Assembly: GCA_030693295.1 (NCBI GenBank)
Contig: JAUYAT010000061.1
Location: 1 to 36,455 of the forward strand
Direction: 5' to 3'
Source of the DNA: a bacterium
GTDB lineage: Bacteria; Patescibacteriota; Patescibacteriia; Patescibacteriales; VMTK01
Length of the DNA: 36,455 nucleotides
The first letter of the stretch is position 1; every line of letters begins with the position of its first letter. Position numbers and translations under genes: made by a program. Below are positions 32,011 to 36,109 of the stretch, piece after piece. A model generated the notes under the pieces. It made no database searches. It was given only the letters and a program-made list of their open reading frames with translations, and was not told the DNA's origin.

Positions 32011-32038
32011 TTGACATAAATAGATATTGCTTTATAAT
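32011..32038 (+). promoter_or_regulatory. Near-perfect sigma-70 promoter
   Basis: TTGACA (32011-32016), 16-base spacer, TATAAT (32033-32038): both boxes match consensus exactly. The expected start of transcription (about 32045) is only about three bases before the ATG at 32048, so the mRNA would be leaderless. Confidence 0.85.
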
Positions 32039-32047
32039 ATAAGAAGT

Positions 32048-32152
32048 ATGCAAAAAGTCATTCAAACAATTCAACCAATTATGTTAACCGCCGTTTTTGT
32101 TTTGCCGGGCATTATTTTGATTTTGGTTGAACTTTGGGCGGCTAAATTATAG
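32048..32152 (+). CDS. 34-residue single-helix membrane peptide
   Basis: The ORF encodes MQKVIQTIQPIMLTAVFVLP then GIILILVELWAAKL. Residues 11-29 form one uninterrupted hydrophobic helix with a charged end on either side. The promoter is consensus and the terminator at 32179-32210 is strong, so the unit is probably expressed. No Shine-Dalgarno sequence fits, in line with a leaderless mRNA. Function unknown; small peptides of this build are often toxins of type I systems or subunits of membrane complexes. Confidence 0.55.
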   Translation: MQKVIQTIQPIMLTAVFVLPGIILILVELWAAKL

Positions 32153-32178
32153 ATTATCGCGAAATCAGATAAAATACA

Positions 32179-32210
32179 AAAGCCGCCCAAGAAAAACCAA
32201 GGGCGGTTTT
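32179..32210 (+). terminator. Rho-independent terminator
   Basis: AAAGCCGCCC pairs with GGGCGGTTTT (10 bp with one G-U) around AAGAAAAACCAA, closing the unit of the 34-residue peptide. Confidence 0.8.
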
Positions 32211-32237
32211 AAAATTACTAAAAAAAGGGGGGAAACA

Positions 32238-32387
32238 ATGTGCAGAAAAAAAGACGAGTGCAATCGGTTGCGAGGCAGCAGGAGGTGCAAAAAGAAGATT
32301 GAAGCAGGGGAATGCCCCGAGCTTCATAAAAAGCCAGCTCTTTTTTTAAAAGAATCCAGCTTGAAGGAAAAAAAGAATGAAATTTGA
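32238..32387 (+). CDS. Basic Cys-containing 49-residue protein
   Basis: The ATG follows the run AAAGGGGGGAAACA, a strong ribosome-binding stretch. The product has four Cys at positions 2, 8, 17 and 26 in a Lys/Arg-rich context (MCRKKDECNRLRGSRRCKKK), suggestive of metal binding or a small nucleic-acid-binding knuckle, and then a Lys/Glu-rich tail. An alternative in-frame upstream start at 32127 would run through the terminator hairpin and is rejected. Two hairpins follow. No relative is recognised. Confidence 0.5.
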   Translation: MCRKKDECNRLRGSRRCKKKIEAGECPELHKKPALFLKESSLKEKKNEI

Positions 32388-32505: not shown

Positions 32506-32535
32506 CAGCCCCTTTTTTATTTTATTAAAGAAACC

Positions 32536-32585
32536 TGTGGATAAAAAAGTTGACTTTCTCGGTAGGTTTGCTATAATTATCCACA
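32536..32585 (+). promoter_or_regulatory. Promoter P2 flanked by two inverted DnaA boxes
   Basis: TTGACT (32550-32555), 16-base spacer, TATAAT (32572-32577). TGTGGATAA (32536-32544) lies just upstream of the -35 and TTATCCACA (32577-32585) overlaps the end of the -10 and the expected start site. Each is an exact match to the classic DnaA box; with two extra bases they form the inverted pair CCTGTGGATAA / TTATCCACAGG. DnaA bound at both boxes should block RNA polymerase. Control by DnaA is inference. Confidence 0.75.
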
Positions 32586-32760
32586 GGTAGTATTATTTAT
32601 ATTTTATGATAAAAACACTGCAAAAAATCGGTTTTTTCTTTTTCAGCTTCTTCTTTGGCTCCTTGAGGAGACCGGTTTTTTGTGGTGTTTTAACATTCTA
32701 AGTTAAAACTCACTAGGGAAAACAAAAATCGGCCTCCTTGCTCGGGGGCCGATTTTATTT
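32584..32760 (+). ncRNA. Structured leader or small RNA with three hairpins
   Basis: Starting at P2, the transcript contains hairpin H1 (arms 32612-32632 and 32671-32691, 21 pairs including three G-U, with an inner CTCC-TTGA-GGAG hairpin in the loop), H2 (GTTTTAAC 32687-32694 with GTTAAAAC 32702-32709) and H3 (AAAATCGGCC 32725-32734 with GGCCGATTTT 32747-32756, then a T-rich tail). H1 and H2 share five bases and exclude each other at that point. H3 is a terminator 30 bases ahead of the next gene's ribosome-binding site. Either a free ncRNA or an attenuating 5' leader. The remaining 32456-32535 stretch is AT-rich with no ORF. Confidence 0.5.
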
Positions 32761-32806
32761 TGTTTTATTTTGTTCTTTAAAATAATTTAAGGGAGGAGGG
32801 AAGAGA

Positions 32807-33064
32807 ATGAAAAAAGGTACTTTTGTAAGAAAAGGGAATGCTGGTTTTGCCGGCCTGACTAAAACAAAGAAAAAGCTGGAAATGGGAAGGACTTTAATTG
32901 TTTGCCAGCATTGTGGAGGCGATGTCGCGCAAGATAAAGATGAGAAATTTGTTTGTAAGAAATGCGGCAAAGAAAGCAAGCCGCATTATAAGGCTGACAG
33001 AGATAAAGCAAAAGCGGCATCGGAGGAAAGTTTGTTCAATCAGGGTTCAATTGGGCTTGCATAA
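32807..33064 (+). CDS. Zinc-ribbon small protein
   Basis: 85 residues with two Cys pairs, CQHCGG and CKKCG, spaced as a zinc ribbon (residues about 33-52), between a basic N-terminus (MKKGTFVRKGNAGF) and a charged tail. The ATG follows GGGAGGAGGG, a very strong ribosome-binding site. It is the first gene after the DnaA-boxed promoter and structured leader, and its own terminator follows. I recognise no family; RNA or DNA binding is a guess from the basic zinc ribbon. Confidence 0.65.
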   Translation: MKKGTFVRKGNAGFAGLTKTKKKLEMGRTLIVCQHCGGDVAQDKDEKFVCKKCGKESKPHYKADRDKAKAASEESLFNQGSIGLA

Positions 33065-33325: not shown

Positions 33326-33664
33326 ATGAAACCAAAATGTTGTAAAAATAAGAAATCTGCCGATGAATTGCTAAAAACAGCCGAGTTTTTAAAAATCATT
33401 GCCGAGGAAAACAGATTAAAAATTCTTTGTATTTTGAGAGACGGCGAAAAATGCGTTTGCGATATATGGCAATATTTGGAACTTCCGCAAAATTTAACCT
33501 CTCATCATCTCAAAATTTTAAAAGATTTTGACCTTATTTCTTCAAAAAAAGACGGCCTCAAAGTTTTTTATTCATTAAATAAAAATATCATTAGCAAATA
33601 TTCAAAATTATTAAATAAATTTTTTCCGCCAAAGGCGGATCCGCCTTTGGCGGAAAATTCATAA
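33326..33664 (+). CDS. arsR: ArsR/SmtB-family metalloregulator
   Basis: 112 residues, winged helix-turn-helix with the helix-3 metal motif CVCD (C43, C45 in EKCVCDIWQYL), where As(III) or another thiophilic metal binds and releases DNA. An extra N-terminal C5-C6 pair could add a ligand. Recognition helix around QNLTSHHLKILKDFDLI. The final residues (FPPKADPPLAENS) are coded by a 36-base perfect palindrome (33622-33657) and are probably not part of the ancestral protein. First gene of the operon, behind its own operator. Confidence 0.93.
   Translation: MKPKCCKNKKSADELLKTAEFLKIIAEENRLKILCILRDGEKCVCDIWQYLELPQNLTSHHLKILKDFDLISSKKDGLKVFYSLNKNIISKYSKLLNKFFPPKADPPLAENS
33622..33657. repeat. Perfect 36-base palindrome at the end of arsR
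   Basis: TTTTCCGCCAAAGGCGGA plus its mirror. It forms an 18-bp stem in the mRNA and sits across the arsR 3' end, so it may reduce transcription into the downstream genes as well as code for the ArsR tail. Confidence 0.92.
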
Positions 33665-33681
33665 TTCTAATGTAAAAAACT

Positions 33682-33921
33682 ATGCAAATTCAAGTCTTGG
33701 GTTCGGGTTGTCCGACCTGCAAAAAATTATTTGAGCTGACAAAACAAGTGGTTGAGGAACTGGGTTTGAAAATAGAGGTGGAATATATCACCGATATTCA
33801 AAGAATTGTTGAAATGGGCGTAATGTCCAGCCCTGTTTTGGCAATTGACGGAAAGCCGGCCATAACCGGATTTTTGCCCGATGCGGGAAAAATAAAAGTA
33901 ACTATTAAAAAATTTATTTAA
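33682..33921 (+). CDS. Small redox-active disulfide (thioredoxin-like) protein, ArsE-like
   Basis: 79 residues with a minimal thioredoxin fold: MQIQVLGSGCPTCKK (active-site C10 and C13), then SSPVLAIDGKPAITG with the conserved cis-Pro. It has no signal, so it is cytoplasmic. Proteins of this type (redox-active disulfide protein 2 group) are encoded next to ArsP-like permeases, and the arsE product of arsEFG loci is of this kind. It probably passes electrons or arsenic thiolates to the permease or ArsG. Confidence 0.88.
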   Translation: MQIQVLGSGCPTCKKLFELTKQVVEELGLKIEVEYITDIQRIVEMGVMSSPVLAIDGKPAITGFLPDAGKIKVTIKKFI

Positions 33922-33928
33922 TTTTACT

Positions 33929-34897
33929 ATGGATATTTTTTGCCCTGTAAAAATTTTTGCCGATTGGATTGTTTATGCTGTTTTTGGTTTAGCGCCAAAA
34001 ACAATTTTTGGCGAAGCAATAAATTTTTTTATTTACGACACGATAAAAATTTTTATTTTACTCTCGGTTATTATTTTCACTGTTTCTATAATCCGCTCAT
34101 TTCTTCCGCCAGAAAAAATTCGCAATATTTTATCCCGAAAAAATAAGTTTTTCGGGCATTTTTTCGCCGGAACTTTCGGCATTATCACTCCTTTTTGCTC
34201 TTGTTCAGCCGTGCCTTTGTTTTTGGGATTTATTGAGGCGGGCGTTCCTTTGGGAATAACTTTCTCTTTTTTGGTCGCTTCGCCGATGATAAATGAAGTC
34301 GCTCTTGTTATGCTCTTGGGAATGTTCGGACTGAAAGTCGCTTTAATTTACATTATTAGCGGCTTTATTATTGCGATTTTGTCAGGCATTGTTATTGGCA
34401 AATTAAAAGTTGAGGATTTAGTTGAAAGTTTTGTTTTCAACAACAAAATCATAAATTCGGAAAACGGTGTAAAAATGGAATGGAAAGACAGAATAAGCTA
34501 CGCGAAAAAATATACCGCCAATATTATTAAAAAAGTTTGGCTTTATATTTTAATCGGAATTGGCCTGGGAGCGTGGATACACGGTTATGTTCCGGCTGAT
34601 TTTTTGGCGCAATACGCCAGCGCCGATAAATGGTATGCCGTGCCTCTCGCTACTCTTGTCGGCATTCCGCTTTATTCCAATGCCGCGGGTGTTATTCCGC
34701 TGGTTAGCGCGCTTACCGAAAAGGGGGTGGCTTTGGGAACGACCTTAGCTTTTATGATGGCGGTAACCGGCCTTTCGCTTCCCGAATTTTTGATTTTAAA
34801 AAGAGTAATGAAAACAAAACTTATTGTTATTTTTGCTTCTATCGTTGGAGTAGGAATAATTTTTACAGGTTATCTTTTTAATTTAATTTTGAAATAA
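33929..34897 (+). CDS. ArsP-type permease (DUF318 family)
   Basis: 322 residues with about eight membrane helices. The family signature GIITPFCSCSAVPLFLGF holds C90 and C92, followed by PLGITFSFLVASPMINEVAL; a second related half contains PLATLVGIPLYSNAAGVIPL and VTGLSLPEFLIL. ArsP exports trivalent organoarsenicals such as methylarsenite; other members have unknown cargo. It lies seven bases after the small thioredoxin gene, five before arsF. Confidence 0.88.
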   Translation: MDIFCPVKIFADWIVYAVFGLAPKTIFGEAINFFIYDTIKIFILLSVIIFTVSIIRSFLPPEKIRNILSRKNKFFGHFFAGTFGIITPFCSCSAVPLFLGFIEAGVPLGITFSFLVASPMINEVALVMLLGMFGLKVALIYIISGFIIAILSGIVIGKLKVEDLVESFVFNNKIINSENGVKMEWKDRISYAKKYTANIIKKVWLYILIGIGLGAWIHGYVPADFLAQYASADKWYAVPLATLVGIPLYSNAAGVIPLVSALTEKGVALGTTLAFMMAVTGLSLPEFLILKRVMKTKLIVIFASIVGVGIIFTGYLFNLILK

Positions 34898-34902
34898 AAA
34901 TT

Positions 34903-35382
34903 ATGCAAAAGAAAATTATTATTTTTATCGTTGGGGTTGCCATTATTGGAACATCGTTTTTAATTCTTAAAAACGGCAATAAACCCACGGAAGCGCAAAG
35001 CCCAAAAAATTTAGCTGCTCAAAATAAGAGCGAAGAAGAAAAGCAAAAAACTGATAAGGTGGAAGTTTTTGTTTTTCACGCCACGCAACGCTGTATTTCT
35101 TGTATAACTATCGGTAAATATGCCGGAGAGACGGTTAATGAATATTTTCAACCGGAATTGAGAGACGGAAAAATTGAATTTAGAGAAATAAATGTTGACT
35201 TGCCGGAGAATAAAGAGCTATCGCATAAATTTCAAGCCGGCGGTTCATCGCTTTATATCAACGCTGTTATTAACGGCCAAGACAATATCGCCGAAGATGT
35301 CGCAGTTTGGCGGCTGGTAAATAACGAGGTTCAATTTAAAAACTACCTGAAAAATAAATTGGATAATTTATTCGGCAAATAA
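34903..35382 (+). CDS. arsF: ArsF-like membrane-anchored thioredoxin-fold protein
   Basis: One N-terminal helix (residues 4-22) anchors it, followed by a hydrophilic linker and a domain with a CxxC pair (C64, C67 in ATQRCISCITIG), which should face outside. FREINVDLPENKELSHKF and SSLYINAVING are further family blocks. It matches the ArsF group named for reduction of nitrophenyl arsenicals in arsEFG operons. The neighbouring ArsG-like protein has membrane cysteines that could recharge it. Confidence 0.82.
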   Translation: MQKKIIIFIVGVAIIGTSFLILKNGNKPTEAQSPKNLAAQNKSEEEKQKTDKVEVFVFHATQRCISCITIGKYAGETVNEYFQPELRDGKIEFREINVDLPENKELSHKFQAGGSSLYINAVINGQDNIAEDVAVWRLVNNEVQFKNYLKNKLDNLFGK

Positions 35383-35383
35383 T

Positions 35384-36109
35384 ATGGCTGAAATTATCAA
35401 TTCCTTGATCGACAACTGCAACATTCCCATTCTTATCGCTTTTCTTTTGGGTATTTTGACTTCAATCAGCCCTTGTCCGCTCGCCACCAACATTACCGCC
35501 ATTGCTTACATCTCAAAAAGAATCAAAACTGCCAAACATACTTTGCTCAACGGAATTTTTTACACGCTTGGACGCGGAGCAAGTTATACCATTTTAGCCA
35601 CTTTGATTTATTTCGGTTTGTCCGCTTTTCAAATTTCAAGCATTTTTCAGGGCTGGGGCGACAAAGTTTTGGGCCCGGTTTTAATAATTATCGGCTTAAT
35701 AATGTTTGGGGTAATAAAAATAAATTTCGGCAAGGGTGGAGAAAAGATCGAAAAAATAAAAATTTGGCTTTCGCAAAAAGGTTTTATCGGTTCTTTTCTT
35801 TTGGGTATGCTTTTTGCTTTAGTGTTCTGTCCTTACAGTGGAGTTTTGTTTTTTGGCGCGCTCATTCCTTTGGTTTTGAAATCAACCGAAAGTCTATTAT
35901 TACCACCGCTGTTCGCTTTGGGCACAGGCTTGCCTGTGATTTTGTTTTCGTTTTTGATCGCTTTTTCCATTCAAAAGTTAGGGCAAGTTTTTCAGATTAT
36001 GCAAAAAATTGAAAAAATAATGCGTTATTCCGTGGCAACAATTTTTCTCGGAGCCGGCGCATATTATACGCAATATCTTGTAAAATTTTTAATTAACATC
36101 AACCAATAA
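35384..36109 (+). CDS. arsG: ArsG-like permease (CcdA/DsbD-related)
   Basis: 241 residues, six or so helices. SISPCPLATN (C31) and LVFCPYSGVLFFGALIPL (C149) are the paired membrane cysteines seen in CcdA/DsbD proteins, which move reducing power across the membrane. It also matches the ArsG efflux permeases of aromatic aminoarsenicals. The start follows arsF by one base. Transport of arsenicals is known for the family; here the paired cysteines also allow a role as electron conduit from the cytoplasmic CPTC protein to ArsF. Confidence 0.85.
   Translation: MAEIINSLIDNCNIPILIAFLLGILTSISPCPLATNITAIAYISKRIKTAKHTLLNGIFYTLGRGASYTILATLIYFGLSAFQISSIFQGWGDKVLGPVLIIIGLIMFGVIKINFGKGGEKIEKIKIWLSQKGFIGSFLLGMLFALVFCPYSGVLFFGALIPLVLKSTESLLLPPLFALGTGLPVILFSFLIAFSIQKLGQVFQIMQKIEKIMRYSVATIFLGAGAYYTQYLVKFLININQ

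Follow-up and report, generated by a model that had tools for sequence, protein, structure and literature searches.

A promoter and two tandem attenuators

The stretch of DNA analysed here, referred to throughout as the window, comprises 36,455 nucleotides of a 1.06-Mb genome assembled in 62 contigs (G000), and the features of interest, which lie on the plus strand unless stated otherwise, are found toward its right end. A promoter of the form TTGACT-16-TATAAT (32550-32577) has its -35 hexamer at 32550-32555, a 16-nt spacer, and an extended -10 element, TGCTATAAT, in which TG precedes the TATAAT at 32572-32577. This promoter is flanked by two DnaA boxes, TTATCCACA, one on the minus strand upstream (32536-32544, reading TGTGGATAA on the plus strand) and the other on the plus strand at the start site (32577-32585), whose first T is shared with the -10. 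A preliminary description of the locus had reported both boxes, and both 9-mers are indeed exact and lie at the coordinates it gave. It had also placed one box over the start site and the other in contact with the -35; the downstream box does overlap the start site, the expected start point falling about 7 nt past the extended -10 and inside the span of the box, whereas the upstream box stops 5 nt short of the -35 without touching it. A consensus box thus occupies a place where contact with RNA polymerase is possible, as at DnaA-regulated promoters. The gap between the boxes is 32 bp, and the box-to-box distance in two-box loci is 40-41 bp, near four helical turns. No other exact match to TTATCCACA occurs in the window, and the pair belongs to an inverted repeat with perfectly matching 11-bp arms (CCTGTGGATAA at 32534-32544 and TTATCCACAGG at 32577-32587); the CC/GG extension that lengthens the repeat to 11 bp was considered as a conserved element and rejected, since it is not kept even in G001. 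As the preliminary description had noted, dnaA is not nearby; it resides on another contig (C8).

Downstream of the promoter lies an open frame for a 31-residue leader peptide, MIKTLQKIGFFFFSFFFGSLRRPVFCGVLTF* (32606-32701), which contains 9 Phe residues, ends at a stop codon located after arm 2 of the attenuator, and remains open in relatives. Three hairpins can be drawn in the leader RNA: hairpin 1:2 (32612-32691; arm 1 at 32612-32638, arm 2 at 32665-32691), delineated by folding and a family-swap test; antiterminator 2:3 (32665-32739), in which about 32665-32694 pairs with 32702-32739 and whose inner part is the near-invariant GTTAAAACTCACTAGGGAAAAC; and intrinsic terminator 3:4 (32725-32766), with a stem at 32725-32756 followed by a T-rich tract. 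The gene next in line, preceded by a strong Shine-Dalgarno sequence, encodes an 85-aa zinc-ribbon-like protein (CQHC...CKKC; 32807-33064) that matches no Pfam family above cut-off and serves here as the attenuator's cargo. Behind it, a cluster at 33326-36109 specifies an ArsR-type regulator, a thioredoxin-like protein, an ArsP-type permease, and further membrane proteins.

A second attenuator lies upstream (32011-32211), with a promoter TTGACA-16-TATAAT (32011-32038), an I/L/V-rich leader MQKVIQTIQPIMLTAVFVLPGIILILVELWAAKL* (32048-32152), an antiterminator formed by CTTTGGGCGGCT/AGCCGCCCAAG, and a terminator at about 32178-32210, and no exact DnaA box is present within it. Because this unit precedes a 49-aa Cys-containing small ORF (32238-32387), the window has two tandem attenuators, each before a small Cys protein. 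Leu-rich leaders with terminators are also found ahead of 2-isopropylmalate synthase-like (leuA-like) genes in the same order (L112, L107, L106, and L102), again with no DnaA box, and leader-peptide attenuation seems to be common in this order.

The Phe-type leader RNA and its cargo genes

The preliminary description had proposed a structured RNA behind the window promoter. Such a structure is real (folding z = -7.8 against shuffles), although it is not free-standing, being instead a Phe-rich leader-peptide attenuator with alternative 1:2, 2:3, and 3:4 hairpins; the locus would therefore sense aminoacyl-tRNA supply. By its predicted anatomy, which combines a leader ORF bearing Phe codons with mutually exclusive hairpins and an intrinsic terminator, the window RNA is a ribosome-mediated transcription attenuator that follows pheA-type logic. 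Each of five sequences bearing the box pair translates to a short F/Y/W-rich open frame ending VFxGVLT, and the consensus structure includes 10 pairs with two-sided changes. A covariance model built from five sequences matched 49 genomes in an order sample of 111, with 42 matches at E <= 1e-8 within the fetched loci; judging by its genome sizes (0.6-1.7 Mb), the order probably falls within the Patescibacteria (CPR). Across 42 leaders, F accounts for 18% of the composition and F+Y+W for 25%, Tyr and Trp codons also being present in other leaders; in the leader frames of relatives the aromatic residues are retained and much of the remainder is variable.

The hairpins were further evaluated at 37 loci by a family-swap test, in which an arm's own partner beat most partners from other families for 1:2 in 37/37, for 2:3 in 33/37, and for 3:4 in 36/37 loci. 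When the leader was masked up to the Phe codons, arm 1 included, and arm 4 was left unmade, arm 3 was held by arm 2 as the antiterminator in 36/37 loci, as compared with 14/37 without stalling; with the ribosome past arm 2, folding yielded the terminator in 38 of 39 cases. When the stalled RNA was folded at full length and at equilibrium, the terminator was still preferred and the switch did not show; the switch must therefore be kinetic. Outside the order, a search of 381 genomes of the class returned one weak, boxless match, L179 (G139, from another order of the class), where an aromatic leader and terminator lie before a small Cys-rich ORF and no DnaA box is present. Within family f15, two loci (L157 and L158) keep the promoter block TATAATTATCCACA and a GGGAAAACAAAAACCGGCC terminator, the aromatic leader being gone, and resemble attenuator remnants.

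In many relatives the genes behind the attenuator are those expected of a Phe attenuator, as judged for seven proteins by Pfam and for the rest by sequence resemblance. They encode ADH-synthase-like aldolases (G001, G029), DAHP synthase (G034, G004, G023, G032, G039), prephenate dehydratase (G022, G011), or chorismate mutase together with prephenate dehydratase and prephenate dehydrogenase, TyrA (G017, G046, G040). Prephenate dehydratase was found in 19 genomes of the order, and 9 of these 19 have it no more than about 2.5 kb downstream of the attenuator. None was found in the window's genome, which is 90% complete, and there a zinc ribbon follows instead; in genomes without this enzyme, the window's included, the attenuator is followed by genes for small proteins, several of which have cysteines of a zinc-ribbon-like pattern.

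The preliminary description had regarded the zinc-ribbon gene as a target of control and had suggested scanning related genomes for the box pair upstream of it. This part did not survive: the gene's few distant relatives are located on contigs other than the attenuator's, and the cargo elsewhere consists of genes for aromatic biosynthesis or for different small proteins. As a conserved partner the gene was rejected, no attenuator-linked homologue having been found in 60 relatives, and a comparison with named genomes returned only a distant deltaproteobacterial match. The zinc-ribbon gene is thus, as judged from these comparisons, a lineage-specific cargo; with its relatives unlinked and the cargo differing among genomes, the attenuator cargo is therefore exchangeable. 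Many small cargo proteins that are otherwise unlike share an FV(R/K/H) motif (MKKGTFVRKGNAGF, MKESSSFVKNGNVSF, SPYFVK, TFVRKPWL, SAFFVH), and ORFs with this motif lie behind attenuators at, for example, window position 32807 and loci L085, L074, L078, and L110.

The start-site box and its candidate binder

The exact box is enriched in the window's own genome, as the preliminary description had suggested be determined by a genome-wide count: 23 copies, mostly intergenic, are present, as compared with 5 for a mirrored control pattern. The paired arrangement is rare, the pattern TGTGGATAAN{22,40}TTATCCACA being present in just 6/111 order genomes, and in five of these six it encloses the same leader-RNA promoter. 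Given the genomic enrichment of the box and the rarity of the pair pattern outside this promoter, the pair exceeds chance. Its conservation in relatives that share the paired promoter was borne out as well, both boxes being invariant between the window and four paired counterparts while most of the intervening and surrounding sequence has diverged.

A wider comparison separates the two boxes. Among the 37 strongest attenuator loci (E <= 3.4e-12), which represent ten families, 34 carry the start-site box, 31 as exact TTATCCACA and 3 as the one-mismatch ATATCCACA, always at the same promoter position. This 34/37 is the unbiased figure, since a box-anchored alignment itself fixes the box letters, and relatedness lowers the number of independent cases from 37 loci to roughly ten families; given own-genome density, chance would place a box on the relevant strand and inside 300 bp at an estimated 0.1 or so of 37 loci. 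In the alignment, the TTG of the -35 is invariant and TGnTATAAT is conserved, and beyond base nine of the box conservation falls at once. Because the box is fixed against the -10 while its spacing from the leader ATG is anything between 0 and >100 nt depending on the locus, it is a DNA element and not an RNA element. Such retention at an orthologous promoter is a further feature of DnaA-regulated promoters. An exact upstream box is found in G000, G001, G022, G034, G042, and G027, and in three f3 genomes (G053, G003, G048) the upstream box reads TGTGGACAA (= TTGTCCACA), another accepted DnaA box variant; it lies 4-5 nt from the -35 among the loci carrying it, and it is absent from all families other than f1 (the window's family), f3, and a single f9 genome (G027), which has kept the upstream box and lost the downstream one. 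Of the bracketing pair first described, then, the start-site box is conserved in ten families, whereas the pair is not general, and its restriction to f1, f3, and one f9 genome makes it a lineage-specific elaboration. As far as these alignments tell, the conserved part is the single start-site box and the lineage-specific part is the pair.

The genome's own DnaA (C8:24198-25553, minus strand) aligns over its length with Bacillus subtilis DnaA (8btg), and its domain IV aligns with that of Escherichia coli DnaA (chain 1j1v), GGRDHTT being kept. The flanks of the dnaA gene have one-mismatch boxes only, exact copies of TTATCCACA being absent from them. Contig C8 has its GC-skew minimum at about 23.9 kb, in dnaN/dnaA and 10 kb from a tandem cluster of three TTATCCACA boxes with AGTCTACA dyads (C8:14316-14354; L030). 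Both findings weigh against DnaA as the binder, TTATCCACA being the putative working box of this DnaA. At L161 (1250-1500), too, tandem TTATCCACA boxes are enclosed by AGTCTACA...TGTAGACT (or AGTCTAGA) dyads, and a similar layout occurs in G019; both the C8 and L161 arrays adjoin a tRNA gene and are possibly an origin or another DnaA structure. The window pair itself was considered as a replication origin and rejected, consisting as it does of just a pair of boxes that flank a promoter with 32 bp between them, and dnaA being elsewhere; the locus lacks a closely spaced box cluster near dnaA or the skew minimum, of the kind associated with oriC, datA, or DARS. Elsewhere in the genome, a type IV pilin promoter (C26:10100) has the box directly against its -10, in the same place and in reversed orientation, and at the corA promoter (C27:23412) the box lies just behind the -10, about a turn further down. 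The corA promoter did not hold up as another box-carrying promoter with strong conservation, an exact box near the start being found in only 6/30 sampled corA genes (own included), and a wider DnaA regulon is, on these sequences, not clearly conserved.

DnaA control of the attenuator promoter, which the preliminary description had proposed, is plausible because GGRDHTT is kept in the genome's own DnaA and the box is enriched (23 vs 5), and DnaA is the most likely binder of the start-site box. By analogy, the E. coli record would count against such control: ChIP-seq showed that DnaA binds only 13/32 exact single boxes, and the bound sites are mostly box pairs 2-3 bp apart, as compared with the 32-bp gap here (PMC11317965).

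The binder might instead be another dedicated regulator, for example an aromatic amino-acid sensor, whose operator shares the DnaA consensus by coincidence, a reading that we consider unlikely. In other systems aromatic operons are indeed served by repressors of their own, TrpR and TyrR for example; 27 of the 40 exact TATAATTATCCACA blocks in the order are at attenuators, usually one per genome, and the Leu-type attenuators of the order have no box. Yet the site matches the DnaA consensus in 9/9 letters, the f3 upstream variant TTGTCCACA is also a DnaA box, the same 9-mer recurs at the corA and pilin promoters and in the tandem cluster, and an unsystematic look identified no co-inherited regulator gene. 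It also seems unlikely that the TATAATTATCCACA block is only an optimised core promoter, comprising the discriminator and start region, with no protein site. The block is fixed relative to the -10 and -35 and spans both discriminator and start point, as this explanation would have it; other strong window promoters (32011, 33258), however, do without the block, which is found about once per genome, and its conservation stops precisely where the nine-base DnaA box does. In addition, f3 retains the box despite a degenerate -10, and the genome's own pilin promoter bears the box reversed in the same place, a reversal that a core element is not expected to tolerate. Taken together, the pilin and corA promoters, the cluster, and the boxless Leu leaders would argue for DnaA rather than a plain promoter element and, less strongly, rather than another regulator. 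We give very little credence to the view that the boxes are datA-like DnaA titration sites whose promoter placement is secondary: exact boxes are indeed enriched, most of them in intergenic DNA, but in ten families the box is tied to a single orthologous cassette promoter and not to a chromosomal place, and one or two single boxes would form a weak sink.

A proposed mechanism and its relation to known systems

We favour a model, which we regard as probable, wherein the locus is an aromatic (Phe) attenuation cassette whose conserved start-site box is bound by DnaA as a steric repressor. When Phe-tRNA is plentiful, the ribosome would reach the leader stop and cover arm 2, and the terminator would halt RNA polymerase; under a shortage of Phe-tRNA the ribosome would stall on the Phe codons, arm 2 would pair with arm 3, and the downstream gene would be read. 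The anatomy, the partner-swap tests, and the gene context support this attenuation scheme at the sequence level. DnaA at the start-site box would sterically repress initiation, such that expression would require little DnaA on the box plus low aminoacyl-tRNA. In f1 and f3, the second inverted box upstream of the -35, whether added or kept, may strengthen repression or loop it, and in this genome the cassette presumably drives the zinc-ribbon protein. A broader version, which we put forward tentatively as a serious possibility, holds that throughout the order DnaA directly controls the aromatic attenuation cassette via its start site, integrating replication state with Phe-tRNA charging, with the f1/f3 two-box version possibly forming a loop. 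If DnaA does act on the aromatic promoter, this would represent a conserved direct wire from the replication initiator to amino-acid supply. Attenuation itself is widespread in this order, serving aromatic amino acids and, it appears, leucine as well; among the papers searched none joined leader peptide, attenuation, and Patescibacteria, and leader-peptide attenuation seems to be undescribed so far for this probable parent group of the order.

The closest known counterparts of the RNA are the E. coli pheA and pheST leaders (Rfam Phe_leader, RF01859), which likewise have a Phe-rich leader, alternative 1:2, 2:3, and 3:4 hairpins, and an intrinsic terminator, and which control Phe biosynthesis genes, as the attenuator does in many relatives of the window. 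The leader described here differs in being longer (about 31 aa), in having its stop after arm 2, and in its near-invariant inner antiterminator segment; the start is often almost leaderless, and a DnaA box sits on the promoter. The window gave 26.8 bits against a gathering cut-off of 55 for Phe_leader in a permissive Rfam scan with only sub-cut-off matches, the scan at gathering cut-off returning tRNAs only. The DnaA-repressed E. coli promoters (dnaA, mioC, guaB, uvrB, rpoH) are similar in that consensus boxes are placed to block RNA polymerase, although the boxes here are single or 32 bp apart and those are 2-3 bp apart, and the E. coli DnaA target list has no aromatic amino-acid operon (PMC11317965). 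What is new at this locus is the combination, a leader-peptide attenuator with a conserved DnaA box on its promoter, both kinds of component being already known. A near precedent for such a layered arrangement is the E. coli trp operon, in which the TrpR operator lies over the promoter and the trpL attenuator lies behind it. Both arrangements have two layers, a promoter-covering protein site and leader-peptide attenuation; in the trp operon, however, TrpR is a dedicated amino-acid sensor, whereas the site here is a DnaA box.
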